This document shows, one piece after another, positions 3,719-21,129 of a stretch of DNA of 42,388 nt. The notes under the pieces are model-generated. The model ran no database searches. It was given only the letters and a program-made list of their open reading frames with translations, and was not told where the DNA came from. A program made the position numbers and the translations under genes. This DNA is from Deltaproteobacteria bacterium. GTDB taxonomy: Bacteria > Desulfobacterota > Desulfobaccia > Desulfobaccales > 0-14-0-80-60-11. Each line of letters opens with the position of its first letter. The first letter of the stretch is position 1. The stretch lies in the NCBI GenBank assembly GCA_021813445.1, contig JAKAKP010000098.1, positions 1 to 42,388 of the forward strand, in the 5' to 3' direction.

Positions 3719-5215
3719 ATGAAGCAAACGACTTTCCGCATCCGCCGGCGCATCATCCAGGCCTTTCTCTTCTGTGTTCTGGGGGTCTTGATCTTTGCGG
3801 GCCTGAGCTTCCAGACGCACCGGGAAATCGGCCGGCACCTGAAGCTGGTGGAACTGGCCGATGACCTGGTGAATAATATCCTGGAAATTCGGCGGTTTGA
3901 GAAAAACTTCTTCCTTTATAAAAAACCGGACAGCCTGAGAGAGGCCCGGGCCTATCTGCTGCGGGTGGATCAGCTTTGCCGCCGCCAGGAAGCAGGCATC
4001 CTGAAGCTGACCCGGGGCCCGCAGTTGCAACAATTTCATCAAACTCTCAAACAATACCAGGAAACCTTCAAGCAAATCGAGGCCCTGATGCAAGAAACCG
4101 CCCGCGGCCCGCAATCCCCAGACCTCATGCCCCTGGAGGAGAACCTGCGGAACCTGGGCCAGGACCTCTTGAGCATGGCCGAGCACTGGGCCAGGGAGGA
4201 AAGGGCCGCCATTGACCGCCTCTTCCTCCAGGCCATGTATCTCTTTGTGGCGTCCATGGCGGTCTTTGTGATTTTGGGGGTGCTGGTGGCCTGGTACGTC
4301 TCCCGGCTCCTGGTGCGGCCGCTTTTCCAGATGCACCGGTACATGGAAAAGATCGCGCACGGCGATTACACTCCCATCCCTGAATCCGAAGTCAAATCCG
4401 AAGAGTTTTTTACCATGTTCCGGGCTTTCAACCGCATGATTCAGGAGCTGGAGCACCATCAGGAGCAACTGGTGCAATCCGGCAAGATCGCCGCTATCGG
4501 CACCCTGACCTCCGGGGTCGCACATGAATTGAACAATCCCATCAACAACATTGTGCTCACCGCGGAGGCCCTCAAAGAAGATTTCTCCCAGCTCCCCCAG
4601 GAAGAAGCCCTGGAAATGATCCAGGACATCCTGGTGCAATCCGGCCGGGCCTCGGATATCGTCAAAAACCTCCTGGACTTCTCCCGTTCCGAACAACCTG
4701 AATTTGAAGAAGTGTCCATCAACAACGTCCTGCGGGAAACCCTGAAACTGGTGCAAAACCAGGTTACCCTGGCCGGCATCGAGGTCAAGAAAGACCTGCC
4801 CCCTGATCTGCCCCATATTTTGGGAAACATAAAAACCCTGCAACAGGTCTTTTTGAATCTCTTTATCAACGCGGTCCAGGCCATGAAGGACGGGGGCATC
4901 CTCTCCATCCGCTCTTTGGAGAGCGAAGACCGGGAATGGCTCAAAGTGGAAGTGACGGATACCGGTGAGGGCATCGCGCCCGAGGATCTGCCCCACATCT
5001 TTGAGCCCTTCTACACCACCAAGGAAGTGGGGCGGGGCACCGGCCTGGGGTTGTCCGTCAGTTTCAGCATCGCCCAGAAGCACGGCGGCCATATTGAGGT
5101 GAAGAGCCAAGTGGGCCAGGGGTCCACCTTCACGGTGTTCCTGCCGGTGTTGGCGGCAGAAGAAATAATTCCCGCAAACCAGGGAGAGGCGTATGCGTCT
5201 CGCAGTGGTGGATGA
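3719..5215 (+). CDS. Membrane sensor histidine kinase (HAMP, HisKA, HATPase_c)
   Basis: 498 residues. Membrane helices lie near residues 11-33 and 178-200, flanking a largely helical periplasmic sensor of about 145 residues (NILEIRRFEKNFFLYKK region). A HAMP linker (RPLFQMHRYMEKIAHGDY) leads to the dimerisation and phosphoacceptor helix SGVAHELNNPINNI with His269. The ATP-binding domain follows: N box NLFINAVQAM, DTGEGIAPEDLPHIFEPFYTTK, and GTGLGLSVSFSI. It autophosphorylates on His269 and passes phosphate to the regulator encoded next, whose ATG lies 23 bases inside this gene, implying coupled translation. The H-box is of the NtrB/ZraS-like type that pairs with sigma54 activators. The signal sensed is unknown. 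Confidence 0.93.
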   Translation: MKQTTFRIRRRIIQAFLFCVLGVLIFAGLSFQTHREIGRHLKLVELADDLVNNILEIRRFEKNFFLYKKPDSLREARAYLLRVDQLCRRQEAGILKLTRGPQLQQFHQTLKQYQETFKQIEALMQETARGPQSPDLMPLEENLRNLGQDLLSMAEHWAREERAAIDRLFLQAMYLFVASMAVFVILGVLVAWYVSRLLVRPLFQMHRYMEKIAHGDYTPIPESEVKSEEFFTMFRAFNRMIQELEHHQEQLVQSGKIAAIGTLTSGVAHELNNPINNIVLTAEALKEDFSQLPQEEALEMIQDILVQSGRASDIVKNLLDFSRSEQPEFEEVSINNVLRETLKLVQNQVTLAGIEVKKDLPPDLPHILGNIKTLQQVFLNLFINAVQAMKDGGILSIRSLESEDREWLKVEVTDTGEGIAPEDLPHIFEPFYTTKEVGRGTGLGLSVSFSIAQKHGGHIEVKSQVGQGSTFTVFLPVLAAEEIIPANQGEAYASRSGG

Positions 5216-6539
5216 CGAGACCATCGTCCAAAAAAGACTGCAATCCGCGCTGGCCAAAGAAGGCTACCAGGTTTCCACCTTCGGCTCCGGTGAGGAGTTC
5301 CTCAAAGCCCTGACCATCCCCCCCTTCGATCTCGTTTTCCTGGACGTAATTCTGCCCGGCATCAACGGCATGGACACCCTGAAGCGCATCAAGGCCGAGG
5401 CCCCGGATACCGAGGTCATCATCATGACTGGCCGGGCCTCCCTGGACGCGGCCATCGAAGCCGTGAAACTGGGGGCTTTCCATTACATCGCCAAACCTTT
5501 CAAACTGGAGGAAGTGAGGCATTTGGCGGCTCGGGCCCTGGAACATAAAGGGCTGCTGGTGGAAAACCGGGACCTCAAGGCCCGGCTGGTGCCGCTCGAA
5601 GGCTGGGGCGAGGTGATCGGGGTCAGCCAGGGCATTAAAGAGGTCTTTGCCGTGATCCGCAAAGTGGCCCCCTTGAGCTGCCATGTCCTGATCCAGGGGG
5701 AATCCGGCACGGGCAAGGAACTGGTGGCCCGCCTCATCCACCGGGAGAGCCCCCGGCGGGACAAGCCCTTTGTCGCTTTTAACTGCGCCGGTTTTACCGA
5801 TGAGCTGATCGCCAGCGAACTCTTCGGTTACGAACGGGGCGCGTTCACCGGCGCCACCGCCACCAAGATCGGCATCCTGGAAACCGCGCACCAGGGCACG
5901 GTCTTCATGGACGAAATCGGGGATATGCCCGCAGGCATGCAGGCCAAGCTGCTCCGGGTCATCCAGGAGCAGCAGGTCTTGCGGGTGGGAGGCAACAAGC
6001 CCATTCAACTGGACCTGCGCTTCATCACCGCGTCCAATAAGGATATGAAACGGGAGGTCCAGGAGGGCAGATTCCGGGAAGACTTGTTCTTCCGCCTCAA
6101 CGTGGTGCAGATCACCATTCCCTGCCTCCGGGACCGCAAAGAAGATATCCCGCCCCTGGTGCAGCATTTCCTGGCCAAGTACAGCCGCAAGTTCGCCAAA
6201 AGGGTCAAGGGCCTGGACGCCGAGGCCCGGGACGCGCTCCTGGCTTACTCCTATCCGGGGAACGTCCGGGAACTGGAGAACATCATCGAGCGGGCCGTGG
6301 CCCTGGCGGAAAGCAGCACCCTGAGCCTGGCCGACCTGCCCCTGGACCTCCGGGAGTTCTCGGTGACCCCCTACCGGGAATGGAATACCCTGGAGGAGCA
6401 GGAGCGGGAATACATCGCTAAAATCCTCGCCTACACCGAATACAACATCGGCCAGACCGCTCAGATCCTCTCCCTGCCCCGCACCACCCTCTGGCGCAAG
6501 ATGCGCAAGTACGGGCTGGCGAAGGGGGAAGGGGGGTGA
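5193..6539 (+). CDS. NtrC-family sigma54 response regulator
   Basis: 448 residues. The receiver domain (1-120) has the acidic pair D7/D8, phosphoacceptor D51, T79 and K101. The central AAA+ domain has Walker A GESGTGKE (about 169-176), the sigma54-contacting loop GAFTGA (216-221) and Walker B VFMDEIGD, plus [17 protein letters not shown]-terminal Fis-type helix-turn-helix contains IGQTAQILSLPRTTLWRKMRKYG. Once phosphorylated by the upstream kinase it would open sigma54 promoters by ATP hydrolysis. All key residues are present. Its start overlaps the kinase gene. No target promoter with a clear -24/-12 element was found in this window, so its regulon is unknown. Confidence 0.95.
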   Translation: MRLAVVDDETIVQKRLQSALAKEGYQVSTFGSGEEFLKALTIPPFDLVFLDVILPGINGMDTLKRIKAEAPDTEVIIMTGRASLDAAIEAVKLGAFHYIAKPFKLEEVRHLAARALEHKGLLVENRDLKARLVPLEGWGEVIGVSQGIKEVFAVIRKVAPLSCHVLIQGESGTGKELVARLIHRESPRRDKPFVAFNCAGFTDELIASELFGYERGAFTGATATKIGILETAHQGTVFMDEIGDMPAGMQAKLLRVIQEQQVLRVGGNKPIQLDLRFITASNKDMKREVQEGRFREDLFFRLNVVQITIPCLRDRKEDIPPLVQHFLAKYSRKFAKRVKGLDAEARDALLAYSYPGNVRELENIIERAVALAESSTLSLADLPLDLREFSVTPYREWNTLEEQEREYIAKILAYTEYNIGQTAQILSLPRTTLWRKMRKYGLAKGEGG

Positions 6540-6725: not shown

Positions 6726-7553
6726 TCAAGAGGCTGGCTTCACCGCTTCGATACTGGCCGAAACGATTAAGTCTTCAATCTTTCGTCCCGGCGCCCATTC
6801 CCGGATGACCTGGCGACTTTCATCTTTAGGCTGGATGCGAATCTGCTGGAACCCGGACTCCGTCAGCATATCCTCCAGTTCGTCGATAAAAGCGGCCCCG
6901 GCAATGCAGCATGTATAAAGGGCCAGATCGTTGCGAACCTCTGGAGGCATGGGCGCGGTGGCGACGATATCAGAAATGGCCAGCCGCCCTCCGGGCCGCA
7001 GAACCCGGAAGGCTTCCCGGAATACCTGGCCCTTATCCGGGGAGAGATTGATGACGCAGTTGGAGATGATGACATCAACGCTGGCGTCGGCCGCCGGCAG
7101 GTGTTCGATTTCCCCCAGACGGAACTCGACATTGGCATAACCGGCGGTAGCGGCATTTTCCCGGGCTTTGGCCACCATCTCCGCGGTCATGTCCACCCCG
7201 ATGACCTGTCCGCTTGGCCCCACCTGCCGGGCCGCCAGGAAACAATCAAAGCCCGCGCCGCTGCCCAAATCCAGCACTCTTTCTCCCGGCTGCAACGCCG
7301 CGATGGCCTGGGGATTGCCGCAGCCCAGCCCTAAATCCGCGCCCGCCGGCACCGCCTGCAGTTCCTCCGGGGAATAACCGATCTGCAAAGAGGAAACGCC
7401 CAGGGAGGTGGCCGCGGGGCCGGAACAACACCCCGGGGAAGCGCAGCCGCAGCCCGGCTGGCCACTCTCGGCTATTTCCCCATATCTTTTCCTTACCGAC
7501 TCCCTGATCTTCCCAGGTGTTGGGTATTTCTCCTTAGAAGTTACTTCGGTCAT
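6726..7553 (-). CDS. arsM: Arsenite methyltransferase ArsM
   Basis: 275 residues, cytoplasmic. The SAM-binding fold is clear: VLDLGSGAGFDCFLAAR (motif I), IGVDMT, and RVLRPGGRLAISDIV. ArsM-specific cysteines include an N-terminal cluster (GCGCASPGCCSG), LGCGNP before motif I, SNCVINL, and LYTCCIAGA. The enzyme transfers methyl groups from SAM to thiol-bound arsenite, giving methylated and finally volatile arsines. It overlaps the end of arsR by 20 bases, so it should be induced together with it. No arsenite permease or ArsC is nearby, so the pair looks like a self-contained methylation module. All residues expected for activity appear present. Confidence 0.95.
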   Translation of the reverse strand: MTEVTSKEKYPTPGKIRESVRKRYGEIAESGQPGCGCASPGCCSGPAATSLGVSSLQIGYSPEELQAVPAGADLGLGCGNPQAIAALQPGERVLDLGSGAGFDCFLAARQVGPSGQVIGVDMTAEMVAKARENAATAGYANVEFRLGEIEHLPAADASVDVIISNCVINLSPDKGQVFREAFRVLRPGGRLAISDIVATAPMPPEVRNDLALYTCCIAGAAFIDELEDMLTESGFQQIRIQPKDESRQVIREWAPGRKIEDLIVSASIEAVKPAS

Positions 7554-7923
7554 TTGCCTTTTCCTCCATTGATCCGGTTTCTTTCTCCAACAAGGTCGGC
7601 AGTGAGCCGCCGCTTAGCAAATTCGCCAATCCGAGAACGGTTTCCCGATCAACCCAACACAGGATGTTCTTTCCACGCCTTTCCACGCGGATGAGTTCTG
7701 CCCGCCGCAGTTCCTTGAGGTGATGAGACACGGTGGAAGGATCTATCTCCAGGTCCCGGCCGAGTTCACCGACGCAGCGGCGTATCGCCGCGTCAGAACT
7801 GCATTTGGTTCCGGGGGGGCAGCAGGAAACCAGGCGCAAGAAGATATGCAAGCGGTTCGGATTGGACAGGGCCTTGAAGACCTCTGCCAAGCGGTGCACC
7901 TCATCTTTTTGATTGTTTGACAT
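7534..7923 (-). CDS. arsR: ArsR/SmtB-family arsenic-responsive repressor
   Basis: 129 residues with a winged-helix fold: AEVFKALSNPNRLHIFLRL opens the domain, and DPSTVSHHLKELRRAELI is the recognition helix region, followed by the wing RRGKNILCWV. It lacks the classical ELCVCDL arsenic site of E. coli ArsR. Instead it has C34, C35, C41 and C50 in a CCPPGTKC...RRC arrangement, a likely alternative trivalent arsenic site. It would repress its own operon until arsenite binds. The ATG at 7921-7923 sits in the middle of a perfect palindrome and only seven bases behind the -10 box, so the message is predicted to be leaderless. No later in-frame start would leave an intact domain. Confidence 0.93.
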   Translation of the reverse strand: MSNNQKDEVHRLAEVFKALSNPNRLHIFLRLVSCCPPGTKCSSDAAIRRCVGELGRDLEIDPSTVSHHLKELRRAELIRVERRGKNILCWVDRETVLGLANLLSGGSLPTLLEKETGSMEEKANDRSNF

Positions 7924-7959: not shown

Positions 7960-8353
7960 GATTTTTTTGCGCCAACCCCATTGAGCTGGCAATACCCTCT
8001 CCAAGCCAGCTTGGTACGAGCCATTCATGAACCTTTGGCTCACCCAAAATCATGAAAGTATTGGTGGCGCAGGCTTTCCAGCCTGCGCATCATCAATTTC
8101 AGAGTAGATATAACTCCCTCCGCCAATCAGCCATAATTTTCTGGTTTCATTCTGAAACAATGCTATTAATCATATAATTTCCAGCAGTTAATCAAAATTA
8201 ATTCCTTACGGCCCCCTTCTCCAACTTTCAAAACCTTTTCAAATTGAAACAAAAATCCTTCGGGGTCCGCACCTCGTTGCATATCATGCTGATTTTTTAG
8301 TTAATTTCCTCCTGGCCCGAACCCTGCATCTCTGCATGGCAACCACGAGGGTC
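7960..8353. repeat. Intergenic region with a composite palindrome module (8021-8090)
   Basis: Between arsR and the first Usp gene no coding region is seen. At 8021-8090 a TTTGGCTCACCC module is followed by a perfect hairpin with nine-base arms GCGCAGGCT (8067-8075) and AGCCTGCGC (8080-8088). Related module pairs recur at 16804-16980, 23076-23140 and 28351-28612. The rest is AT-rich and may contain the Usp promoter; a TATAAT stands at 8173-8178 without a convincing -35 box. Confidence 0.7.
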
Positions 8354-8824
8354 ATGATGCATAAACGGGTAGTCGTCGCGGTGGATTTGCAGGAGCCTAT
8401 GCCTTGGGCGGTGCAGTATGCCCTGGGCCTGGCCGGGCGCCTCAAGTCCCCCCTCACGGTCCTGGCCGTGGCCGCGGCTAGCGGCCCCGGCGCGCCGGTG
8501 GGTGCTGACCCGGCCGGGGGCGATATCGACGCCGGCCAGAGGCAGTGGCTGGAGACGACCATGGCTCAGGGCCGGGAAGCGGGAGTCAACCTGGAACTTT
8601 TTTTGGCCGCGGGGCCTTTTCCTTCGGCCATCCATGAATTCGTGGGCTCCCGGACCGATATCCAGTTCCTGGTCATCGGCGTGGGGGCTGCGGGCCAGCC
8701 GCCGGGTCTGGCCTTGAGCAGGCTGCACCAGATTTTTACCGGGGAAATCCTGCTGGTGCGGGAACAGGGCAGGATCACCAACCTGTCGGAGATGCCCATC
8801 AAAACCAAAGGGAGGGAATCTTAG
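8354..8824 (+). CDS. Universal stress protein (UspA family)
   Basis: About 156 residues with one Usp fold: RVVVAVDLQEPMPWAVQYALGLAGRL at the N-terminus, a DIQFLVIGVGA strand and a late GEILLVREQ strand. The usual nucleotide-binding glycine motif is weak (GVGAAGQPPG), so ATP binding is uncertain. GAGGG at 8347-8351 supports the ATG at 8354 or 8357 over the one at 8336. The gene is followed after two bases by a TauE-type exporter and opens a cluster with three more Usp-type proteins. Usp proteins generally respond to starvation, redox or energy stress; the partner here is unknown. Confidence 0.8.
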   Translation: MMHKRVVVAVDLQEPMPWAVQYALGLAGRLKSPLTVLAVAAASGPGAPVGADPAGGDIDAGQRQWLETTMAQGREAGVNLELFLAAGPFPSAIHEFVGSRTDIQFLVIGVGAAGQPPGLALSRLHQIFTGEILLVREQGRITNLSEMPIKTKGRES

Positions 8825-8826
8825 GG

Positions 8827-9756
8827 ATGTGGAACCTATATCTGCCGATTGCCGGTACTAGCATCAATATCTTGCTTCTCTTCGGCCTGGGAGGGCTGGT
8901 AGGCTTCCTCTCCGGCCTTTTCGGGGTGGGCGGCGGCTTTTTAATGACGCCGCTGCTGCTGATGGCGGGGATCCCCTCCACGGTGGCCGCGGCCAGCGAC
9001 TCCAACCAGATCGTGGCCGCGTCCACCTCCGGCACCTACGCCCACTGGCGCATGGGCAACGTGGACTTCAAGATGGGGTTTTTGCTCCTGGTGGGCGGCG
9101 TGCTGGGGGGGACCGTGGGGGTCCAGATTATTAAAATCCTGCGGGCCATGGGCAACGCCGATTTCGTCATCAAGATCACCTACGTGCTCATGCTGGGCAT
9201 CGTCGGCTTTTATATGTTCATGGAAAGCCTGCAGGCCCTGCGCAAGAAAGGCGTTGTCGAGCCCAAGCGGGGGGAGCCGGGCAAGGTCTCCATTTATGTA
9301 CGCATGATCCAAGCGCTCCCCTGGCAGATGCGGTTTGAGAAATCCGGGGTCACCTTCTCCGTGCTCCTGCCCCTGATCCTGGGCGTCATGGTGGGCATCC
9401 TGGCGGCCATTATGGGGGTGGGGGGCGGCTTCGTTATGGTGCCGGTCATGGTCTATATGCTGCGGATGCCCATGCACGTGGTGGTGGGCACCAGCCTCTT
9501 CCAGATACTTTTTACCTGCATCAACGTCACGGTCATGCAGTCCATCACCAACCACAACGTCGATCTGGTGCTGGCCGTGATTCTCCTGATAGGTTCCACC
9601 CTGGGGGCGCAGATCGGGGCCAAGTTGAGCCGGCGGCTGCACGCCGACCAGCTCAAGATTTTGCTGGCTTCCATTGTGCTGCTGGTCATGGTGCAGATCC
9701 TGTTCAGCCTCATTCTCACCCCGGGTCAGTTGCTGGCCTATAAAGGAGGACACTGA
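8827..9756 (+). CDS. TauE/SafE-family sulfite or sulfonate exporter
   Basis: 309 residues, about eight membrane helices in two homologous halves, each marked by a glycine-rich signature: SGLFGVGGGFLMTPLL near residue 30 and AAIMGVGGGFVMVPVMVY near 195. A charged cytoplasmic linker of about 40 residues (KKGVVEPKRGEPGK) separates the halves. The family moves sulfite, sulfoacetate or related sulfur oxyanions across the inner membrane. The start is two bases behind the Usp stop codon, and the next gene begins two bases after this stop, so the three are translated from one message. Pairing with a TIGR02186-like protein is a recurrent arrangement. Confidence 0.92.
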   Translation: MWNLYLPIAGTSINILLLFGLGGLVGFLSGLFGVGGGFLMTPLLLMAGIPSTVAAASDSNQIVAASTSGTYAHWRMGNVDFKMGFLLLVGGVLGGTVGVQIIKILRAMGNADFVIKITYVLMLGIVGFYMFMESLQALRKKGVVEPKRGEPGKVSIYVRMIQALPWQMRFEKSGVTFSVLLPLILGVMVGILAAIMGVGGGFVMVPVMVYMLRMPMHVVVGTSLFQILFTCINVTVMQSITNHNVDLVLAVILLIGSTLGAQIGAKLSRRLHADQLKILLASIVLLVMVQILFSLILTPGQLLAYKGGH

Positions 9757-9758
9757 TC

Positions 9759-10538
9759 ATGACCGGGCCAAGCAGAGTGGGCCAAGGGGCCGCGGCGGTC
9801 TTGGCATTCCTCCTGGCGCTGGGACTGGCCGGCGCCGCAGGCGCAGCCGCAGCGGAGTTGCAGTTGGTGCCCAATGAGGTGGAGATCGGGGCGTTCTTCG
9901 ACGGCGCCCAGGTGAAACTGCAGGGCGCAATCCCCGCGGGGGCCGCGGCGGTGGTGGAGGTGCTGGGCAGCACGGCCACCGAGAAGCTGCTGCGTAAAGG
10001 CCGGCGCGGCGGGCTGTGGATGTCGGTGGGGGAAATTAAGGTGGAAAATGTCCCCTCCTTGTATATATTGCAGAGCAGTTCGCCGGAGATCCCGACGTTG
10101 ACCGCGACTGCGACGCCCTGGGGGGTGGCCGCATTGCAAAAGGTGGTGAAACTGAGCGGCAGCCTGGAGGCCAGTGAACAGGGTAAGTTTTTCCAGGAAT
10201 TTTTAGAGCTGAAGAAGCATGAGCAGGTTTACCGGGTCAGCCCCGGGGTCTTGAAACTCGCCCCCGCCCCGGATGGCGGGAGTCTGGTTAAGGGCGCCAT
10301 TGCGCTGCCCGCCAAGGTGCCCGCCGGCAACTACCGGGTACGGTTATCCGCGGTCCTGCACGGCAGCCTGCTCAGTCAAAGAGACGCGCCCCTGGAGGTG
10401 AAGATGGTGGGTTTCCCGGCCATGCTGATGAAGTTGGCCTACCAGCAAGGGGCGCTCTACGGCATTCTGGCGGTGGTCATCGCCATTGTCACCGGCTTTA
10501 TCATGGGTATTTTATTCAAAGGGAAAACGGAACATTAA
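9759..10538 (+). CDS. TIGR02186-like membrane-anchored periplasmic protein
   Basis: 259 residues: signal peptide (LAFLLALGLAGAAGAAA), a beta-rich periplasmic domain with VEIGAFFDGAQVKLQGAIP and RRGGLWMSVGEIKVENVPS, and one C-terminal membrane helix (ILAVVIAIVTGFIMGILF). This matches the TIGR02186/Alph_Pro_TM family, known mainly from its location beside TauE-type exporters; its biochemical role has not been established as far as I know. A role as accessory subunit of the exporter is an inference from the two-base spacing. The gene ends in a small hairpin with a T-run. Confidence 0.8.
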   Translation: MTGPSRVGQGAAAVLAFLLALGLAGAAGAAAAELQLVPNEVEIGAFFDGAQVKLQGAIPAGAAAVVEVLGSTATEKLLRKGRRGGLWMSVGEIKVENVPSLYILQSSSPEIPTLTATATPWGVAALQKVVKLSGSLEASEQGKFFQEFLELKKHEQVYRVSPGVLKLAPAPDGGSLVKGAIALPAKVPAGNYRVRLSAVLHGSLLSQRDAPLEVKMVGFPAMLMKLAYQQGALYGILAVVIAIVTGFIMGILFKGKTEH

Positions 10539-10559
10539 GGCCTGGGGCCTCTGTTTTTT
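10538..10559 (+). terminator. Rho-independent terminator behind the exporter genes
   Basis: AGGCC (10538-10542) and GGCCT (10546-10550) form a short stem with a TGG loop, followed by a six-T run. It overlaps the stop codon of the TIGR02186-like gene. The stem is short, so termination may be partial. Confidence 0.5.
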
Positions 10560-10611
10560 CAGGGTGATAAGATTTATGATGATAAGATGAGTTCACCCTA
10601 TTGGGATGTTG

Positions 10612-10705
10612 CCAATCTCTGCGTCCTCTTCGTCTCCGCGGTGAATTTCCTTTTTTTTCACCGCAGAGGCGCAGAGAGCGCAGAGAGAGGATACGCAGAG
10701 AAAAA
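10612..10705. repeat. Imperfect inverted repeat of CGCAGAG units
   Basis: The left arm carries CTCTGCGT, CTCTTCGTCTCCGCGGTGAA and the right arm TTCACCGCAGAGGCGCAGAG with further CGCAGAG units, around a T-rich centre. It lies between the exporter genes and the PEP-synthase-like gene. Similar CGCAGAG-unit repeats are widespread in unrelated bacterial genomes. Confidence 0.75.
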
Positions 10706-10746
10706 GACTTTTGCAAAAGCCTATTCCTGTTTAAAGGACAAAGCCG

Positions 10747-13293
10747 GTGCTGGCGGCGCTGCAGAAACTCTGGCGAAAAGTCTTTAAGCCTCCAGAGGAC
10801 CTGGTGGCCTTCCCGGAGGTCTTTGAGCATTTCCAGGAGTTGCTGCAGGATCACCAGAAGGTGATGGAAATCATCGCCGATCTGGGGGAAAAATCGGGCG
10901 GCGATTTCATCTTCGACCGCAAGTATCTCCAGGACAGCGTCAACGAGCTGCACGTCCTGCTGCTGCAACTGATTAAGGGGCTTAATTTGATTTCCTCCAA
11001 CCGCTACCTCGATCTTTATGCCACCCTGGACCGCATCTTTGTGCCGTTGGAAGCGGAACTCCGGGGCCGGCTGAGTCTGGCCGCGGAGATGCCCCTGACG
11101 GTGGCCCTGAAGGAATTGCCCGTGGATCATCCGGAGCTAAGCGGCGGCAAGGCGGCCAACCTGGGAGAAATCAGCCAACGATTACACCTGCCGGTGCCGG
11201 ACGGCTTTGTCATCACCACCCGGGCCTACCGCACCTTTCTGGAGCAAAACCGCCTGGAGAGCCGGACCCATGCCCTGATCAGCGCCTGGCTGGCCGACGA
11301 GACGGATACGCTGCACACCTCCCGGCAGCTGCAATACGGCATCCTGGCGGGGGTGGTGCCCCAGGAGGTGGCCCGGGAAATCCGGCGGTTCACGGAAAAC
11401 GTCCCCTTTTGGGCGGTCAGGAGCAGCGCCTACGGGGAAGACGGGGAGTTGTCATTTGCCGGCCTCCATGAGAGCCTGCTCCAGGTGCCGGCCAGGGGGG
11501 TCGCCGATGCTTACAAAAAAGTCCTGGCCAGTCTCTTTTCGCCGGAAGCCCTGGCCTACCGGCGGCGGATGGACATGTTGGGAGAAGAGGCCGCGATGGG
11601 GGTGCTCTGCCAGGAGGTCATTACCAGCCAGGCTAGCGGCGTGGTGCATAGCCTCACCCTGGAATGCCCTGAGACGGACTGTCTGACGATCTATGCCTAT
11701 CCGGGGCTGGGGCGCCCGGTCATGGACGGCCGGGCCCGGCCGGACCGGTTTATCGTGGCCCGGCAGGCCCCTCATCAGGTCAAATCCCGGGAAGTATTCC
11801 CCAAGGAATATATCGTCAGGCCGGCCCCAGGGGGAGGCGAGGAAGAGGTGGCGCCACCCCCGGAGGATCGGGACCGGGCGGCTATCGGCTTTGAGACCAT
11901 CCAAACCCTGGCGCATTGGGCCATGTCCCTGGAAAGATATTTTAAGCGTCCCCAGGAAATCGAATGGGCGGAAGGGCCCGCCGGCCAGATTTGGGTGCTC
12001 CAGTCCCGGCCCTTGGCGTTTTCGCAAATCCCCGATATCCCCAAGGTGGAAGTAACCCGTTTGCACGCCCAATACCCCGTCCTGCTCCAGGACCAGGGGG
12101 TGGTGGCCCATGCCGGGGTGGGTTCCGGAAAGGTTTTTCTGGTGCAATCCGACGCAGATCTGGGGCGGTTTCCCGACGGTGCGGTCCTGGTCACCCGCTA
12201 TACCGCGCCCTGGCTGGCCCGGGTCGTGCCCCAGGCTGCAGCCATCGTCTCCGAGAGGGGGTCGCCGGCGGGACACCTGGCCACCATCGCCCGGGAGTTC
12301 CGGGTACCCACCCTGGTGGGGGTGGAAGGGGCCACAGAGGTGCTCAAGCCGGGGATGGAAGTGACGGTGGACACCAATGACCGCCTGGTCTTTGCCGGCC
12401 GGGTCCAGGAACTGCTGCGCTATGAGCTGATGGAGTCCACGGCTTTTGAAGACGCCGCGGAATTCCGCTTGCTCCGCCGCATCTTGAAGCGCATCGGTCC
12501 CTTGACCCTGGTTGACCCCCAGGATCCAGGGTTCACCCCGGAAGGCTGCCGCTCGGTGCACGACGTCATCCGCTTCGTCCACGAAAAGGCGGTGCAGGAA
12601 TTGATGGACCTGCCCCGCTTTCTGAAACGCTTCAAAGGGGCACAGCTCTGGACCCTGGTGTCGGACATCCCCATCGGCCTGAAGATCTGGGACCTGGGGG
12701 GCGGCATCGGTCCGGAAGCCCGGGGCAATGAGGTGACCGCGGCCGAGATCACCTCCCAGCCTTTAAAGACCCTGTGGGAAGGAGTCTGCGCCCCGGGGGT
12801 GTGGAGCACGGAACCGATCCAGGTGGACTTTTCGGGCCTGATGTCCAGCCTCACCCGGACCACCGAAGCCGCGACCGCGGCCGGTTTTAATCTCGCGGTC
12901 ATCACCGGCACTTACCTCAATCTCCATCTGCGGCTGGGCTACCATTTCAACCTGGTGGACGCGCGCATGGACCCCGATCCCCATCACAACCATATCTACT
13001 TCCGTTTTGTGGGCGGAGTGACGGATTTGACCCGCCGCTCCCGGCGGGCCAAGCTGCTGGCCGACATCCTGAGCAAGTACCATTTCAAGGTGGATACCAA
13101 GGGGGATCTGGTCATCGCCCGGATCCTGCACCTGCCCCAGGAGGACATCAGACAGCGCCTCCTGGTGCTGGGCCGACTCATCGGCTTTACCCGGCAACTG
13201 GACATGCAGCTAAAAAGTGACGAAGACGTGCCGGTCTTTACCGAAAAATTTCTTGAGGGCATCCAATCCCAGGGGGACAAGGAAGCGCCTTAA
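10747..13293 (+). CDS. PEP-synthase-like phosphotransfer protein lacking the PEP-binding barrel
   Basis: 848 residues from a GTG start. Residues 1-105 are helical and unassigned. Residues about 115-430 are a PPDK_N/ATP-grasp nucleotide-binding domain: GGKAANLGEI, VPDGFVITTRAY, FWAVRSSAYGEDGELSFAGL, EIEWAEGP...WVLQSRPL. Residues about 450-560 are the swivelling phosphohistidine domain, with His510 in SPAGHLATIARE. True PEP synthases then have a TIM barrel with a catalytic Cys; here about 285 different residues follow, with LGYHFNLVDARMD, HHNHIYFRFVGG and FTRQLDMQL. So it could phosphorylate itself from ATP but should not make PEP in the usual way. It is followed after 10 bases by a lone receiver protein. 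An intramolecular or partner-protein phosphotransfer role is inference. Confidence 0.82.
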   Translation: MLAALQKLWRKVFKPPEDLVAFPEVFEHFQELLQDHQKVMEIIADLGEKSGGDFIFDRKYLQDSVNELHVLLLQLIKGLNLISSNRYLDLYATLDRIFVPLEAELRGRLSLAAEMPLTVALKELPVDHPELSGGKAANLGEISQRLHLPVPDGFVITTRAYRTFLEQNRLESRTHALISAWLADETDTLHTSRQLQYGILAGVVPQEVAREIRRFTENVPFWAVRSSAYGEDGELSFAGLHESLLQVPARGVADAYKKVLASLFSPEALAYRRRMDMLGEEAAMGVLCQEVITSQASGVVHSLTLECPETDCLTIYAYPGLGRPVMDGRARPDRFIVARQAPHQVKSREVFPKEYIVRPAPGGGEEEVAPPPEDRDRAAIGFETIQTLAHWAMSLERYFKRPQEIEWAEGPAGQIWVLQSRPLAFSQIPDIPKVEVTRLHAQYPVLLQDQGVVAHAGVGSGKVFLVQSDADLGRFPDGAVLVTRYTAPWLARVVPQAAAIVSERGSPAGHLATIAREFRVPTLVGVEGATEVLKPGMEVTVDTNDRLVFAGRVQELLRYELMESTAFEDAAEFRLLRRILKRIGPLTLVDPQDPGFTPEGCRSVHDVIRFVHEKAVQELMDLPRFLKRFKGAQLWTLVSDIPIGLKIWDLGGGIGPEARGNEVTAAEITSQPLKTLWEGVCAPGVWSTEPIQVDFSGLMSSLTRTTEAATAAGFNLAVITGTYLNLHLRLGYHFNLVDARMDPDPHHNHIYFRFVGGVTDLTRRSRRAKLLADILSKYHFKVDTKGDLVIARILHLPQEDIRQRLLVLGRLIGFTRQLDMQLKSDEDVPVFTEKFLEGIQSQGDKEAP

Positions 13294-13303
13294 GGAGGGA
13301 AAC

Positions 13304-13693
13304 ATGGCTCAGAATAAGTTAAGAGTGTTGATCCTGGATGACGAGCCCATTGTCTGCAAACGGTTGAAACCTTCCCTGGAAAAATTGGGGTTCGAGGTGG
13401 ACACCTTCACCCGGAGTTTCGAGGCCATGCAGGCGGTGGAGCAGGCCCGGTACGATATCATCGTCACCGACCTGAAAATGGAAGGCATGGACGGCATGCG
13501 CTTTCTCCAGGAAGCCAAGAAGTTGCATCCAGAGACGGAAGTGATCGTCATCACCGGCTTCGCCACCATGGAAACGGCCAAGGAATCCTTTAAGAAAGGG
13601 GTCTTCGATTTCATCGCCAAGCCCTTCAACCTGAATGAGATTCAGAAAGTGGTGCTGCGGGCCGCAGACAAGATCAAGGGCGCAGCCGGGTAA
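13304..13693 (+). CDS. Stand-alone response-regulator receiver domain
   Basis: 129 residues, only a CheY-like receiver: acidic pair D12/D13, phosphoacceptor D56, T84 and K106, all conserved. There is no output domain. The ATG at 13304 follows a strong AAGGAGGG (13292-13299); a longer frame upstream is not needed. Lone receivers act as phosphate relays or by binding a partner. No kinase is adjacent; the nearest is at 3719-5215. Its place between the PEP-synthase-like gene and the Usp genes suggests it belongs to the same stress circuit. Confidence 0.93.
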   Translation: MAQNKLRVLILDDEPIVCKRLKPSLEKLGFEVDTFTRSFEAMQAVEQARYDIIVTDLKMEGMDGMRFLQEAKKLHPETEVIVITGFATMETAKESFKKGVFDFIAKPFNLNEIQKVVLRAADKIKGAAG

Positions 13694-13697
13694 TTTG

Positions 13698-13732
13698 AGT
13701 TCAAAGTTCAAAGTTCAAAGTTCAAAGTCAAA
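13698..13732 (+). repeat. Heptamer array (AGTTCAA)4 behind a stop codon
   Basis: Four exact AGTTCAA units (13698-13725) and one degenerate unit begin four bases past the receiver gene stop. Related seven-base arrays follow many other stop codons in the window, nearly all in the sense orientation. Confidence 0.9.
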
Positions 13733-13804
13733 ACCGCGACGGCCAAGAACTATATTTTTGGACGAGTCAACCGCTCATAAAGGAATTAAAAGGAGGAATG
13801 ACCT

Positions 13805-14596
13805 GTGATCAAGGCATTGGTCTCCATTGACGTGGACCTGGCCGCCAGCCGGACCATTCGGTTCGCCTGCCAATTGGGGTATTTTATGCCGGTGGAATTG
13901 CACCCGGTGTACATCAAAGAATCTCCGCCCCGGGAGCTGTCCATCGGTTCGGGCTGGGCCCGACACCACTGGGAGCAGGAACTCATCCAGGAAGGGAAAA
14001 AAGAGATTTCCGAATGGATCGCCTCTGAGATTGACTATAGCCCGGAGGTCAAGCTGATGGAACCCCGGGTGGTTACCGGCGACCGGGACGCGGAGCTGCT
14101 GCGGATTATGGAGAAGGAAGCCTTTGATCTTTACGTCGAGGGCGCCCGGTTTCCCTGGAACCAGGCTATGCTCTATCAGAAGGTCCATTCCCGGCTCTTC
14201 CAGAAGGCGCAAATGCCCATCGCCCTGGCTCCGGTGTTGCGCAAGATGCATAAGCTGCTGGCGCCCTGCTTCGATGGGGCCGGGACCCAGGCCCTGGGCC
14301 GGGCGCTGCCCAAACTCTGGTCGGGCTCTTCCCTGCCGGTGGCCCTGTCCCTGCTGCAAGGACGGGAAGGGGCTTTGCAGCCGGAAGCCCAGCGGGTCCG
14401 GGAAGCCCTGGAGAAAGCCTCCTGCCAGGTGGGGCCGGATGAGGTCTTTACCGCGTTCCCGTCGCCCCCCACGGACGAGTTCCTGCGGGAATACGGCCTG
14501 ATGGCGCTGGCTTTGGAACGGGGCGTCAGCAAGGATAGTCCCCGCTTGGAATGGTTGGCCCAGTTCAAAGCGCCCCTGCTCCTGGTGCTTTATTAA
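13805..14596 (+). CDS. Divergent tandem universal stress protein
   Basis: 263 residues from a GTG start with AGGAGG eight bases upstream. The first half begins IKALVSIDVDLAASRTIRFACQLGY, a Usp-like beta1-alpha1, and ends ALAPVL; the second half ends FKAPLLLVLY, a Usp beta5-like strand. Neither half has the G-2x-G-9x-G(S/T) nucleotide motif. The fold assignment rests on this strand-helix layout and on two neighbouring genes encoding clear tandem Usp proteins. Without nucleotide motifs it is probably a non-ATP-binding Usp. It could also be a related family I do not recognise. Confidence 0.65.
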   Translation: MIKALVSIDVDLAASRTIRFACQLGYFMPVELHPVYIKESPPRELSIGSGWARHHWEQELIQEGKKEISEWIASEIDYSPEVKLMEPRVVTGDRDAELLRIMEKEAFDLYVEGARFPWNQAMLYQKVHSRLFQKAQMPIALAPVLRKMHKLLAPCFDGAGTQALGRALPKLWSGSSLPVALSLLQGREGALQPEAQRVREALEKASCQVGPDEVFTAFPSPPTDEFLREYGLMALALERGVSKDSPRLEWLAQFKAPLLLVLY

Positions 14597-14622
14597 CTGC
14601 GGGAAGAGGGAGGGGGAAAGCC

Positions 14623-15486
14623 ATGAGAATTCTCTTCGCTGGAGATGAGCAGCCTTACAGCGCTTACGCCCTCAAGGAAGCCGCGAAGCTGGCCATGAAC
14701 ACCTGGGCCGATATGACCCTTTTGGGCATCCAGCCCGGCGGCGGGGGTGCAGCCGCGGTGGACCCGGCCCTCAACCTGGCCCTGACCCGCTACCGCGAGT
14801 CTTTCCTGAACGCCTGGGAGGGCGAGGGCTCCCCTTACGCCATGGCCAACTGGCAATACGAATGGATACCTCTGAAAGAGGGCGTCCTGGAGGAGAAACT
14901 GGTCTGCCGCGGCAGCAAGAAAGATTTCAAGGTGCGCCTGCGCCAGGGCAACGTGGCCGCGGGCATCCTGGCGGAAGCCAGGGAAGAGGGTGCCGATCTC
15001 ATCGTCCTGGGCTGCTCCCGGGGTGGCGGCAGCCAGTGGGCCGGCGCCCCCGGAGTGCCCCAGAAAGTGGCCGCGGACGCGGATTGCTCCGTGCTGCTGG
15101 TGAAAGAGGAACAGCCCATCACCCGCATCCTGGCCTGCCTGGACCAGACCCACGTCAGCCAGTCTTCTCTGGAGATCTTGAACCAGATGGTCACCCTTCA
15201 CGGGGCCCAGTTGGAGGTCATCGGCCTCAACCCGGAGGGGGGCCTGAAAAAGGAAGTCTACACCCGGCTGATTGAAGTGGGGGATTATTACCAGGAGCGC
15301 AACATCAAGGTGACCACCCGCCTCACCGAGATCGCGGATTTCGAGAGTTTTATCAGCCAAGAGACGCAGCAGGATTTGCTGGCCCTGTGGATGGGCAAAA
15401 AGTCCCTGTTGCAGCGGTTTTTCCCCCGGGATTGGGTGGGCCGGTTTGTGGCCAAGTCCCAGACCTCGGTCATGGTCATGCGTTAA
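14623..15486 (+). CDS. Tandem universal stress protein
   Basis: 287 residues with two Usp domains. The first runs from MRILFAGDEQPYSAYALKEAAKLA to DLIVLGCSRGGGSQWAGAPGVPQKVAADADCSVLLV, a G-rich loop close to the nucleotide-binding motif. The second begins ITRILACLDQTHVSQSSLEIL and ends KSQTSVMVMR. The ATG at 14623 follows GAGGGAGGGGGAAAG, whereas the longer frame has no such site. It lies 26 bases behind the divergent Usp gene and ends in a heptamer array, consistent with one stress transcript. Confidence 0.82.
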   Translation: MRILFAGDEQPYSAYALKEAAKLAMNTWADMTLLGIQPGGGGAAAVDPALNLALTRYRESFLNAWEGEGSPYAMANWQYEWIPLKEGVLEEKLVCRGSKKDFKVRLRQGNVAAGILAEAREEGADLIVLGCSRGGGSQWAGAPGVPQKVAADADCSVLLVKEEQPITRILACLDQTHVSQSSLEILNQMVTLHGAQLEVIGLNPEGGLKKEVYTRLIEVGDYYQERNIKVTTRLTEIADFESFISQETQQDLLALWMGKKSLLQRFFPRDWVGRFVAKSQTSVMVMR

Positions 15487-15490
15487 AAAC

Positions 15491-15525
15491 GGTTCAAAGT
15501 TCAAAGTTCCAAGTTCCAAGTTAGG
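15491..15525 (+). repeat. Heptamer array behind a Usp stop codon
   Basis: Units GGTTCAA, AGTTCAA, AGTTCCA, AGTTCCA and AGTTAGG follow the stop codon by four bases, in the same sense as the gene. Drift between units shows expansion followed by point mutation. Confidence 0.88.
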
Positions 15526-15624
15526 CGGCAATAACCTGAGACTTTGCTTAATTTCTGGGGGAGATTGGGCTCTGGCAAGGCTGTTCGGAAAATTTTCCTG
15601 GAGGCGGTTTGGGAGGGAGGCGGT

Positions 15625-16473
15625 ATGAAGATTCTGGTGGGGGTGGAAAAAAGCGAAGAATCGCACCTGGCCCTGCGCTATACCTGTCATCTGCTGGAAC
15701 ACTTTGAAGCCGAGGTGGACGCCTTGTACGTCAAGCCCGACGTGGTGGAAATGGCCAGGGAAGGAGCCTATGCGCCTTTTACCACCAGGACGGAAATCGA
15801 GCGGCAGGTGGAGCGGGAGGCCGGCAAGGTGCTGGAAGAAATCATCGAGTCCTGCGAAGTCTGCCTGGGGGGCAAGATTCCCTGCCAGCCCCGGGTCGCC
15901 ATGGGGGACCCCGCGGAGGAGGTCATCCGGGCCGCGGATGACGGCCAATATGATCTGATTGTCCTGGGGGGCAGCGGCCGCTCGGCGCTCAAAGGTCTGC
16001 TCCTGGGGGCAGTTTCCGTCAAGGTGTTGCACCACGCCAAGCAACCGGTCCTCATCGTCCGCAATTACCGGGAAATCCAGCGCATCCTGGTGGCCTACCG
16101 GGGGTCCCGCTGCGACCAGGGGGCCCTGGAATTCATCGCCCCCCTCTTCGCCAAAAAGACCCCGGAGATCACCATCATGCACGTCCAGGAAACCGCGCGG
16201 GGAGAGTCTGAGGAGGTCGCGGAAGCCTGTGTCATGACCGGCCGGGAGACCTTGCATGAGCTGGGATATGAGCCGGTCACCAAGATGGCCAAAGGTGATT
16301 TCGAGGAGGAGGTCTTAAAGGAAGTGGCGGTGGGGCGTTACGACCTGGTGGTGCTGGGGGCCTACGGCCACCGCCAGCACAAGTACCTGCCGGTCATCAG
16401 CGACGAGGCCCTGAACCTGGCCCGCCTCACTACCCGGCCGATCCTGGTCTTTAGGGAGTTGGGGGAGGATTAA
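15625..16473 (+). CDS. Tandem universal stress protein with an intact nucleotide motif
   Basis: 282 residues. The first Usp domain (MKILVGVEKSEESHLALRYT to QPVLIVRNY) has the glycine motif GGSGRSALKGLLLGAVS, matching G-2x-G-9x-G(S/T), so ATP binding is likely. The second domain begins QRILVAYRGSRCDQGALEF and ends RPILVFREL, and its YDLVVLGAYGHRQHKYLPV lacks part of the motif. GGGAGGGAGG lies just upstream of the ATG at 15625. A 138-base gap separates it from the previous Usp gene. It closes the cluster, and a heptamer array follows the stop. Confidence 0.9.
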   Translation: MKILVGVEKSEESHLALRYTCHLLEHFEAEVDALYVKPDVVEMAREGAYAPFTTRTEIERQVEREAGKVLEEIIESCEVCLGGKIPCQPRVAMGDPAEEVIRAADDGQYDLIVLGGSGRSALKGLLLGAVSVKVLHHAKQPVLIVRNYREIQRILVAYRGSRCDQGALEFIAPLFAKKTPEITIMHVQETARGESEEVAEACVMTGRETLHELGYEPVTKMAKGDFEEEVLKEVAVGRYDLVVLGAYGHRQHKYLPVISDEALNLARLTTRPILVFRELGED

Positions 16474-16479: not shown

Positions 16480-16500
16480 AGTTCCAAGTTCCAAGTTAAA
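16480..16500 (+). repeat. Heptamer array behind a Usp stop codon
   Basis: AGTTCCA, AGTTCCA and AGTTAAA begin seven bases after the stop codon, in the sense orientation. The unit sequence matches the later units of the array at 15491-15525. Confidence 0.85.
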
Positions 16501-17041: not shown

Positions 17042-17120
17042 TCCCTGGTCCCTGGTCCCTGGCCCCTGCCCACTGCCCACTGCCCACTGCCCACTGATTA
17101 CTGATTACTTGTTACTGATC
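17042..17120 (-). repeat. Drifting heptamer array covering the end of the RND pump gene
   Basis: On the minus strand seven-base units drift from ATCAGTA through GGCAGTG (several copies) to ACCAGGG. The array begins inside the last codons of the efflux gene and includes its TAA stop, so the C-terminal SNK is itself repeat-encoded. Confidence 0.85.
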
Positions 17121-20100
17121 GCACCCTCACCCGCCTCCTTCTCCCGCGTCTCCCACTTGACGATCTTCAGGTCCTTCACAAAGATGCTGTAGAAGACCGG
17201 TACCAGGAGCAGGGTGATCAGGGTGGCCACCAGCAGCCCCCCGATCTGGGCGTAGCACAGGGGCTCCCAGAGCGGCCCGCCGTGCAGGGCCAGGGGAATG
17301 AGCCCGAAGACCGTGGCCCCCACGGTGATCATCACCGGCCGCAACCGGATGATGCCCGCGTCCAGCACCGCTTCCTCCAGGGGCTCCCCTTCCTCGTGCT
17401 TCTCTTCAATGAAGTCAAAGAGCACAATGACGTGGCTGACGATCACCCCCACCAGGCTGACGATGCCCAGAAAGGCCATGAAGCCGAAGGGCTGCCCCAT
17501 GATCATCAGGGAGATCAAGGCCCCCACCATACCGTAGGGGATGGTGGCAAAGACGATCAAGGGCTTGACCGCGTTCTTGAACTGGAACACCAGGGCCAGG
17601 TAGATGCAGATGACCGAGATCAGCAGGACGATGGTCAGGTCGTGGAAACCCTTTTCCTGTTCCTCCTGCTCCCCGCCGATCTCCATCTTGTAGCCCGGCG
17701 GCAGGCTCTTGCCGAATTTGGTGAGGCCCGGCCAGACCGCGTGCAGCACCTGGGAGGCCAGCACCCCGGGGGTGGGGTAGCAGGAGACTTCGATGGTGCG
17801 GAACTGCTGGCGCCGCTCGATCTTTTCCGTCTGCATGCCGTAGCGGAGGCTGGAGATCAGCCCCAGGGGCACCTTTTGCGTCCCTTCGGAGGAATAGACG
17901 TAGAGGTTGCCCAGGTCCGCCAGCCGGGCCCGCTCCCCCATGACCAGGCGGGCCTTGATGGGAATCTGCTTGTCCCTTTCCCTGAGCGTCCCCACCTGGA
18001 AGCCGTTCATGCCCACCGCCGAAGCCGCGGCCACGTCGTAATTGGAAACCCCGGCCAGGTTGGCCCGGTCCGGGTCGATCTGGAGGCGGGCCACCATGTT
18101 TTCCGCGCCCCAATTATCCCGGATCCGCTCCGCCAGGGGCGTGGCCCGGAAGAGCCTCTCCACTTCCCGGGCTAGGCCACGGAGGGTGTGGGCGTCTTCG
18201 CCGGAGATGCGGATGGATACCGGATATTTGATGGGAGTGCCGGTATCCAGCTGCTTCACGTCCACCATGGCCCCGGGGATCTCCTTCAACAGGGCCTGCT
18301 GCAGGGGGTCCACCAGGTTGTTGGTGTCGTGCTTATCCTTGACCTGGATGACGATCTGGGCATAGTTGGGCTGCTGGGGTTCGGGAGACAGGGAAAACCA
18401 GAATCTGGGGCCGCCGCCGCCCACAAAGGAAGTCAGGCAATCCAGCACCTCCCGGCCTTTTTTGTCCGTCCCCCCGTGCTCCCGCCCGTAATTGGCGGCC
18501 ACTTTCTGGAGGACCTTTTCCACCTGGCGCGCGGTCTCGTCGGTGGCGGATAAGGGCGCGTCCTCCGGCAGCCAGACGTTCACATAGGAGAGGTAGGACA
18601 GGTCCTTGGGGAAGAACGCGGTCTTGAGCATCAGCATGGCCCCGGCCCCCAGGGCCAGGAAGCCCAGGGAGCCCGCAAAAAACCGCCAGCGGTGCTCAAT
18701 GATCAAACGCCCAAATTTGTAGTACATCCCCAAAAAGCCGTGCTGGCGCCGTTCGTGGAGGGGCTGCTCCAGGGTCTTGGGCGGCCGCAGCAGGTGATAG
18801 CCCAGAAAGGGGATAAAGGTCATGGACACAATGCGGGAGGCCACCAGGGAACAGGCCATGACCACCGGCAGGCTGTAAATGAAGCGCCCGGTGTCGCCCC
18901 CCACCATGAGAAAGGGGAGATAGGCCACCACGTTGGTGACGGTGGCGTAGAGAATGGCCGTGGCCAGCTTGGTGGGGCCCAGCCAGGCCGCCACCATGGG
19001 CTGCTGCCCCATACCCAGTTCCCGTTTGATGGCGTCCCCGGCCACCACCGGGTCATCCACCAGCAGTCCCAGGGCGATGATCAGCGAGGCGATGGAGACC
19101 TGCTGCAGGTCGATGCCCAGCAGATACATCATGCCGAAGGTCATGGCCAGGGTCAGGGGGATGGACAGGGACATGAGCAGGGCCGAGCGCCAGGACCAGA
19201 AGCCCAGCCAGGAAACCAGGACCACCAGGAAGATGGCCTCGTACAGGCTCTTCATGAACAGGTCGATATTTTCCCGGACCTGCTGGGGCTGGTCCGAGGT
19301 CCGGGTCACGATCAGGTCTTCCGGGAGGATCTTTTTCAGGTCCGCCAGGGCCCCGTCCACGGCCTTGCCGAATTCGCCAATCTTTTCCCCGGCCCGCATC
19401 TGCACCGCCAGGGTGATGGCCCGGGAGCGCTGCCACTTGCCCTTGGCGTCCCGCCAACTGAAGAAATTCAGAAAACTGGGGGGGCTCTCGTAGGAGCGCA
19501 TCACGTCCACCACGTCCCGGAGGTACACCGGCACGTGGTCCGCGGTGGTCCCCATCATCACCCCGCCGATCTCTTTTTCGCTCTTGAACTCCCCGGAGGG
19601 CACCACCGTCACTTCCTTGCCCTCCACCTCCAGGACGCCGCCGGGGACCGAAATATTGCGGGCCTGCAACAGGCTCGGCAGCTTGGTGACATTGCCGCCG
19701 TAGGAGGCCAGCCGCTCCTGGGAGTATTCCAGCCAGATCTCTTCCTTGAGCACGCCGCTCCGGCTCACCTTGGTGACGATGGGCGTCTTGTCCAGGGCCA
19801 CCGTCACCCCCAGCAGGGTGCGCTCCATGAGCTTGGTGAAGTCGTCCATCTCCCGGTAGCTGTATTTGTCCCCCGGGCTCTTGGCCAGGGCCGCGGCCGT
19901 CTGTTGCGGGTCCCGGATAAGCAGGGGCTCCCAGACATCCGGGGGCAATTCCGAGGCCCGCACATTCTCCCGGACGTATTTATGCAGGAAGGCCGTGATC
20001 CGGGCGTCGCTGGCGTCCGAGGCCGAGTCCAGGGCCACAAACCCCGGCCCCTCGATGACCCGCACGTCCCGGGCCAGCCCTGATTTTTTGAGATACGCCG

Positions 20101-20746: not shown

Positions 20747-20774
20747 GATTAGTTACCAGTGGTCAGTGGCCAGT
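20747..20774. repeat. Heptamer array upstream of the RND start codon
   Basis: GATTAGT, TACCAGT, GGTCAGT and GGCCAGT lie directly in front of the efflux ATG at 20746, occupying the place of its ribosome binding site. No purine-rich Shine-Dalgarno sequence is left in this position. Confidence 0.75.
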
Positions 20775-20820
20775 TTGTTTTTTTAGTCGACAGTAAGATG
20801 GGATTGGCCCACCTTGCTTC

Positions 20821-20873
20821 TCGTTCCCAAGTTGCACTTCTCATTTCTCGTTCCCAAGTTGCACTTGGGAACG
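20821..20873. repeat. Duplicated TTCCCAAG palindrome module
   Basis: CGTTCCCAAG (20849-20858) and CTTGGGAACG (20864-20873) form a perfect palindrome with a five-base loop. A partial copy, CGTTCCCAAGTTGCACTT, lies 27 bases upstream, indicating a local tandem duplication. Confidence 0.8.
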
Positions 20874-20957
20874 CCTTATTATTTGCCAAGCTTAGCTTGG
20901 CCGCGACAAGGCTCCCAATCAAAATTTATTCCCATGTACGCCAAGCAGAACCCTGCT

Positions 20958-21077
20958 TCAAACCTCAACCAAATCAATCTCCAGCACCCCATCCCGGCCC
21001 TGATAATCTCGGGCACTGGAATAGCGCCAGTCCTCAGGACGGTCCACCAACCCCGCCCTCACGGGATTATAATGCAG
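20958..21077 (-). pseudogene. C-terminal remnant of a REP-associated tyrosine transposase (RAYT)
   Basis: On the minus strand 39 codons ending in TGA read LHYNPVRAGLVDRPEDWRYS, then SSARDYQGRDGVLEIDLVEV. NPVRAGLV and P-W-Y/SSA followed by L-x-ID are the typical tail of Y1_Tnp-type transposases associated with REP elements. The catalytic HUH and Tyr parts are missing and no start codon exists, so this is a fossil. It is bordered at 21086-21129 by a large REP-like hairpin. Confidence 0.8.
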
Positions 21078-21085
21078 TTTTGTAG

Positions 21086-21129
21086 GGTGGGCATGGCCCA
21101 CCGTCTTTTATCGGTGGGCCGTGCCCACC
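21086..21129. repeat. REP-like hairpin next to the transposase remnant
   Basis: Two 18-base arms, 21086-21103 and 21112-21129, pair with a single mismatch around an eight-base T-rich loop. The core is GGTGGGC-nn-GGCCCACC. It touches the stop codon of the acyl-CoA dehydrogenase gene and could also end its transcript, although no T-run follows. Confidence 0.85.

Follow-up and report, generated by a model that had tools for sequence, protein, structure and literature searches.

This analysis concerns a gene cluster on contig JAKAKP010000098.1 of a Deltaproteobacteria bacterium (the window: the whole stretch of 42,388 nucleotides, to which all positions refer unless a locus is named), built around an 848-aa phosphoenolpyruvate (PEP) synthase-like protein that we call PpsX. 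The contig is one of 166 in a metagenome-assembled genome (MAG) of 4.18 Mb, 97% complete, whose nearest relatives are labelled Syntrophobacterales, Syntrophales, Deltaproteobacteria and Desulfobacca. A first-pass annotation had delineated eight same-strand genes, and our Pfam and NCBIfam searches found all eight open reading frames (ORFs) in place, on the plus strand and with the domains named. They encode UspA, a single-domain universal stress protein (Usp; 8354–8824, with an alternative start at 8336; PF00582, 7.5e-7); a TauE/SafE (TSUP) anion permease (8827–9756; PF01925, 4.6e-50); a TIGR02186/PF09608 protein (9759–10538; PF09608, 6e-48); PpsX (10747–13293; PPDK_N over residues 131–424, 4e-66, and PEP-utilizers mobile domain (PF00391) over 475–544, 3e-17); a stand-alone receiver with D56, T84 and K106 (13304–13693; PF00072, 2.6e-29); and three further Usps, namely the divergent tandem Usp-like protein Usp2 (13805–14596) and the tandem proteins Usp3 (14623–15486; PF00582, 5.7e-16) and Usp4 (15625–16473; PF00582, 7.2e-38 over two stretches). 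Usp2 had no Pfam match, and its likeness to tandem Usps comes from a profile match to Usp4 (97%).

The limits of eight genes proved too narrow. The conserved unit also includes an upstream pair on the plus strand (3719–6539), missed at first, and a sigma-54-type promoter. The pair consists of a sensor histidine kinase (HK; HAMP-HisKA-HATPase by Pfam; 3719–5215), which is adjacent in L019, L020, L022, L023, L025 and other loci as well, and an NtrC-type sigma-54-dependent response regulator (REC-AAA-Fis HTH by Pfam and NCBIfam; 5193–6539). Scoring of plus-strand sites for -24/-12 elements (GG-N10-GC) gave its top score among 42,372 positions to CTGGCCCGAACCCTGCA at 8312–8328. Since this site ends 25 bp before the ATG at 8354, that start of UspA is likelier than 8336. 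A predicted -24/-12 element is thus found ahead of the operon, with an NtrC-type activator nearby. Separate promoters for each block, which would have spoken against a single unit, are not borne out: one strong site lies upstream of the block, and no site scoring above 12 points was found in the internal gaps of the cluster. Of 30 loci, 13 have a sigma-54-type site (shuffle p < 0.007, with a simple base shuffle as control) ahead of their first gene. Several gaps are operon-like (Usp-TauE and TauE-PF09608, 2 bp each; PpsX-receiver, 10 bp, with the receiver ATG at 13304); those before PpsX and before Usp2 measure 208 and 111 bp, and are thus wider than in relatives, where the medians are 36 and 47 bp. 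Three of the cluster's intergenic gaps contain short tandem GTTCAAAGTT / GTTCCAAGTT repeats (13699–13720, 15492–15520 and 16481–16495).

The gene order TauE-PF09608-PpsX-single receiver recurs in 33 loci with orthologous PpsX. Seven MAGs from an independent collection, found by a scan of GTDB contigs, carry a PpsX 65–86% identical to that of the window together with the core order, which was found in about 25 further genomes. A PpsX profile run over 198 genomes of the phylum placed 27 genomes, from about 20 families, in the ortholog tier (more than 700 bits) and returned many paralogs (less than 680 bits). An independent search with PF09608 showed that in each of the 27 ortholog-tier genomes this gene directly precedes PpsX, once across a contig break. 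Nearly all ortholog loci have a single-domain receiver directly downstream of PpsX, and 23 of the 33 have an NtrC-type regulator within 8 kb. The fetched ortholog neighbourhoods showed TauE-PF09608-PpsX-receiver throughout, Usp2 and Usp3 in part, and Usp4 in the closest relatives only. Four loci (L019, L020, L022, L023) keep the arrangement HK-NtrC-(Usp)-TauE-PF09608-PpsX-Usp2-Usp3-Usp4 with the receiver after PpsX; two (L017 and L018) lie on contigs that begin near TauE; and L021 keeps the core with an altered flank. In L021 a 313-aa protein that consists largely of repeats of a 7-residue motif (LANxRTE type; 12491–13432 of that locus) is inserted after Usp2, ahead of an additional pair of HK and receiver genes. 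The PpsX proteins linked to TauE form one clade of 34, that is, the 33 and one tandem copy. Overall, TauE, PF09608, PpsX and the receiver constitute the core, the HK-NtrC pair is near-core and the Usps are accessory. The proposal that these genes form one coherent unit therefore stands, as they co-occur in strict synteny in about 33 loci.

PpsX comprises a helical N-terminus (residues 1–116), an ATP-grasp domain (131–424), a phospho-His domain (475–544, with His510) and a C-terminal domain of its own (560–848). Residues 126–544 align to the PEP synthase structure 2ols, including the ATP-grasp Lys/Arg/Glu/Gln set (K135, R225, E406, Q419, R421), and alignment to PEP synthases stops near 544–559; a Pfam scan gave no match to the PEP/pyruvate barrel (PF02896). 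Twelve residues (K135, R225, S226, S227, E231, G239, G298, E406, Q419, R421, H510 and R516) are invariant in 73 diverse homologues, although the paralogs of the source genome alone are down to 33–39% identity to the window protein. On all these grounds PpsX retains the ATP-grasp and phospho-His domains without the catalytic barrel, exactly as first described. It scores below the cut-offs for PEP synthase (TIGR01418, 261.7 against 739.75 bits) and for RIF_Ptrans_rph of NCBIfam (183 against 999 bits). Because the barrel is lost while the phospho-His machinery is fully retained, a different phosphoryl acceptor is suggested. Elsewhere in the genome there is a separate 957-aa frame with PF02896 (PEP-utilizers_C), presumably the true dikinase of this organism, which means that PEP need not come from PpsX.

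The C-terminal domain of PpsX carries two conserved motifs, C601-x3-H605-D606-x2-R609-x2-H612-E613 and N748...F752-x-F754-x-G756-G757...R763-R764-x-R766-R767...D787; the arginine-rich segment of the latter (RRxRR, 763–767) would suit an anionic ligand. This domain had no sequence match in PDB at E<1, and its AlphaFold2 model, built from 8 sequences (pLDDT 60.6), matched no PDB entry reliably (Foldseek E 0.019 at best, VIA Z no higher than 5.4). We also considered the N-terminal His36 as a DHp/Hpt-like phosphosite and dropped it, the position being Asn in 60 of 71 homologues. No PpsX relative was found in viral contigs, plasmid records gave ordinary PEP-synthase-type matches only (ending before residue 600), and a role in anti-phage defence was set aside for want of a meaningful PADLOC match.

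The two genes preceding PpsX are well supported as family members, with TauE at 170.9 bits against a PF01925 cut-off of 32.6 and the PF09608 protein at 163.9 against 24.5; the latter falls under the TIGR02186 equivalog cut-off (90 against 255.25 bits). Its AlphaFold2 model (pLDDT 80) predicts a signal helix, a periplasmic Ig-like beta-sandwich and a C-terminal transmembrane helix. The model matched Ig-like folds with Z up to 9.5, such matches being common and uninformative on function, and no paper in the literature searched mentions TIGR02186 or PF09608. Several genomes, the source genome among them, have a second TauE + PF09608 pair without PpsX, beside HK+NtrC or HK+receiver genes (L011, 10069–14995; L075, 9072–13849; L070, 8092–13307).

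The source genome has seven PpsX loci, a family overlooked by the first-pass annotation; the six other members are 33–39% identical to the window protein, and the match to one of these, L009/L010, is split in two. Among 40 paralog loci from many genomes, we found within 8 kb an HK in 36, a single receiver in 34, TauE in 22 and a second PpsX in 19. By chance TauE would be expected near about 6% of paralogs (15 TauE genes per 4.18 Mb), and we give no p-value for this linkage since the loci are not independent. A small membrane protein (~100–170 aa) and a small Usp accompany the TauE genes of paralog type (L013, 16222–16518; L015, 8015–8539), as though every type of TauE came with a dedicated membrane partner, PF09608 being that of the ortholog type. 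Some paralogs are longer (1060–1153 aa; L078, 2298–5759; L079, 2355–5729; L080, 2861–6043; L081, 228–3425; L082, 2556–5741), with an extra ~200 aa at the C-terminus that have weak lectin-like (jelly-roll) Pfam matches; this extension hints at a carbohydrate ligand for some family members.

The distribution of the family follows dissimilatory sulfur metabolism, in agreement with the tie to sulfur that had been proposed for the cluster. In the 198 genomes, dsrA scored above its cut-off in 102, and PpsX (counted as a match that includes the C-terminal domain, E at most 1e-120) was present in 71, 70 of them together with dsrA; with 32 genomes having dsrA alone and 95 neither gene, Fisher's test gives p=4e-27, a statistic that ignores kinship. 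The single PpsX genome without a dsrA match (G090) is a MAG 80% complete. For the orthologs, dsrA was found in 27 of 27 genomes (Fisher p=2e-9, again ignoring kinship). Being almost confined to dsrA-bearing genomes, the PpsX family is therefore a marker of dissimilatory sulfite/sulfate reducers.

A related arrangement is known from genetics. Korte et al. (2014) described a "nitrate cluster" (DVU0251-DVU0245 / Dde_0597-0605) in which insertions confer nitrate resistance on Desulfovibrio vulgaris and D. alaskensis, and which comprises TauE, a hypothetical protein, a PtxB-like binding protein, an HK, a single receiver, a protein with PPDK_N and mobile domains, and a DSP phosphatase (PMC4001038). 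Insertions in the TauE, receiver or PPDK-like genes gave resistance to nitrate, not to nitrite, and 100 mM nitrate made no difference to the growth of isolated DVU0246, 0247, 0250 and 0251 mutants (PMC4001038). The authors proposed a leaky thiosulfate transporter (PMC4001038), a reading repeated later (PMC9723548). In the literature searched, those locus tags of this cluster that were looked for appear only in that study and in one biofilm omics paper. Two of our loci (L068 and L069) combine a full-length PpsX with a PF12974 binding protein, an HK, a receiver and a DSP phosphatase, the composition of DVU0249-DVU0245; on this match of composition, rather than of Desulfovibrio sequence, the PPDK-like protein of nitrate-type clusters would be PpsX.

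We propose, with a probability of roughly 0.55, that the locus encodes a transport module, controlled by signals, through which a dissimilatory sulfite/sulfate reducer moves a sulfur-type oxyanion (thiosulfate, sulfate or sulfite-like). The HK-NtrC pair would switch on the sigma-54 promoter and with it the operon Usp-TauE-PF09608-PpsX-receiver-Usp2-Usp3-Usp4. TauE and the membrane-anchored periplasmic PF09608 protein would move the anion, inward more likely than outward. PpsX would use ATP to phosphorylate its own His510 and pass the phosphoryl group to a partner docked on the C-terminal domain (a small molecule, the receiver or another protein), and PpsX and the receiver could jointly govern how active either the transporter or downstream control is. 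Usps in general bind nucleotides, and those of the cluster may act as nucleotide-binding adaptors. In this model we infer the substrate, the direction of uptake, the phosphorylation with its acceptor, and the role of the Usps. Several points weigh against the proposal. The oxyanion module is read here from sequence, the ligand of the PpsX C-terminal domain is a guess, and the dsrA statistic ignores phylogeny. Kinship with the nitrate cluster is argued by composition and not by the sequences of DVU0246 or DVU0251; moreover, that cluster has a PF12974 binding protein and a DSP phosphatase, both missing from the window module, which adds PF09608 and four Usps. In Desulfovibrio itself, some mutants (those of the DVU0250 and DVU0245 homologues) disagree between strains, and the thiosulfate defect was described as "mild" and is unpublished (PMC4001038).

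The cluster was at first taken for an exporter of a sulfur oxyanion, and one could picture a detoxification or stress circuit in which TauE expels excess sulfite while the Usps and PpsX report energy stress. The TauE/SafE family owes its name to putative sulfite/organosulfonate exporters, the dsrA link fits a sulfite-producing pathway, and Usps are present. Nevertheless, in the related Desulfovibrio cluster cells that lose TauE are protected against an anion added from outside, a result easier to reconcile with entry than with exit (PMC4001038, PMC9723548), and the literature searched on that cluster contained no sulfite phenotype. We thus favour uptake, regard the transport direction given earlier as probably inverted, and consider a sulfite exporter unlikely.

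A somewhat better, if still doubtful, case can be made for PpsX as a dikinase of a small molecule or polymer, comparable to glucan, water dikinase or rifampicin phosphotransferase, in which case the cluster would modify a metabolite and the transporter move the product or a related anion. PpsX has the complete ATP-grasp and swivelling-His machinery, some paralogs have the lectin-like extension, and PpsX is paired with a DSP phosphatase in loci of nitrate-cluster type; in D. vulgaris, the phosphatase and PPDK-like mutants show opposite behaviour, as expected of a kinase and its phosphatase (PMC4001038). That result was not reproduced with the D. alaskensis homologue (PMC4001038), though, and the extension is confined to some paralogs with marginal scores; the window PpsX has no substrate-binding domain of known kind, and the near-constant partnership with HK and receiver points to signalling. 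ATP sensing and phosphotransfer, as first proposed for the cluster, are not supported by these data. The receiver, with its D56/T84/K106 set, adjoins the phospho-His protein as in a putative phosphorelay, but direct phosphotransfer from PpsX to the receiver appears improbable to us. Still less likely is its broadest form, in which PpsX would be a new type of phosphodonor: a barrel-less dikinase core that phosphorylates the adjacent receiver (or a similar partner), reads the ATP/AMP/pyrophosphate state resulting from sulfate activation and gates oxyanion entry; it would belong to a class of signalling proteins that parallels histidine kinases and is found mainly in sulfate reducers. Lastly, PpsX could be catalytically idle, serving merely as an ATP/ADP-binding scaffold for the receiver and the Usps. 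It has neither barrel nor known acceptor, and the nucleotide binding general among Usps would suit such a scaffold; yet the tested catalytic residues, His510 included, are invariant in 73 divergent homologues, which an idle protein would not need, and we find this very unlikely. The transport module under signal control remains our preferred reading.

If PpsX does phosphorylate the receiver, two-component signalling would gain a new input route; the residues to test are His510, D56 of the receiver, C601/H605/D606/R609/H612/E613 and RRxRR 763–767. How sulfate reducers select and regulate what enters the cell, be it sulfate, thiosulfate or toxic look-alikes (nitrate, perchlorate), has practical weight for oil-field souring, and the nitrate genetics of Desulfovibrio is now connected with a gene family that spans the phylum, goes with dsrA and often has several copies per genome.

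Other genes of the window lie around the cluster. An ArsM-like methyltransferase and an ArsR-type regulator (6726–7923, minus strand) separate the conserved NtrC and UspA genes, a spot that in other genomes has no insert or different ones (L026, L035). Downstream of the cluster there is an RND efflux set (AcrB-type pump, HlyD-type adaptor, OEP; 17105–25818, minus strand), among whose parts an acyl-CoA dehydrogenase gene intervenes, and the end of a group II intron lies at the contig edge (1–103, minus strand; Rfam RF02012, 87 bits).

Compared with known systems, PpsX shares with PEP synthase (PpsA) and PPDK the order of ATP-grasp and phospho-His domains, but it lacks the PF02896 barrel and has a different conserved C-terminal domain instead. 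Like glucan, water dikinase and rifampicin phosphotransferase, it reuses these two domains without pyruvate chemistry; the domain order of those enzymes differs from that of PpsX, which, unlike them, is not known to have an acceptor domain. The window TauE resembles TSUP TauE/SafE permeases in its PF01925 domain and differs in its setting, an operon with kinase, receiver and PpsX. The PF09608 protein, encoded directly after TauE, shares its domain with TIGR02186/PF09608 (Alph_Pro_TM) proteins but comes from Desulfobacterota and not from an alphaproteobacterium. With the nitrate cluster the window has in common TauE, an HK (from the upstream pair), a single receiver and a PPDK-like protein, which measures 744 aa in DVU0246 and 848 aa here; unlike the nitrate cluster, it has a sigma-54 activator. 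The system had been called undescribed, and largely it is, although a related cluster was already known genetically. The novelty is thus below what was claimed, yet considerable because of the PpsX family, and the cluster is a real, conserved and coherent variant of a genetically known, mechanistically unexplained kind.

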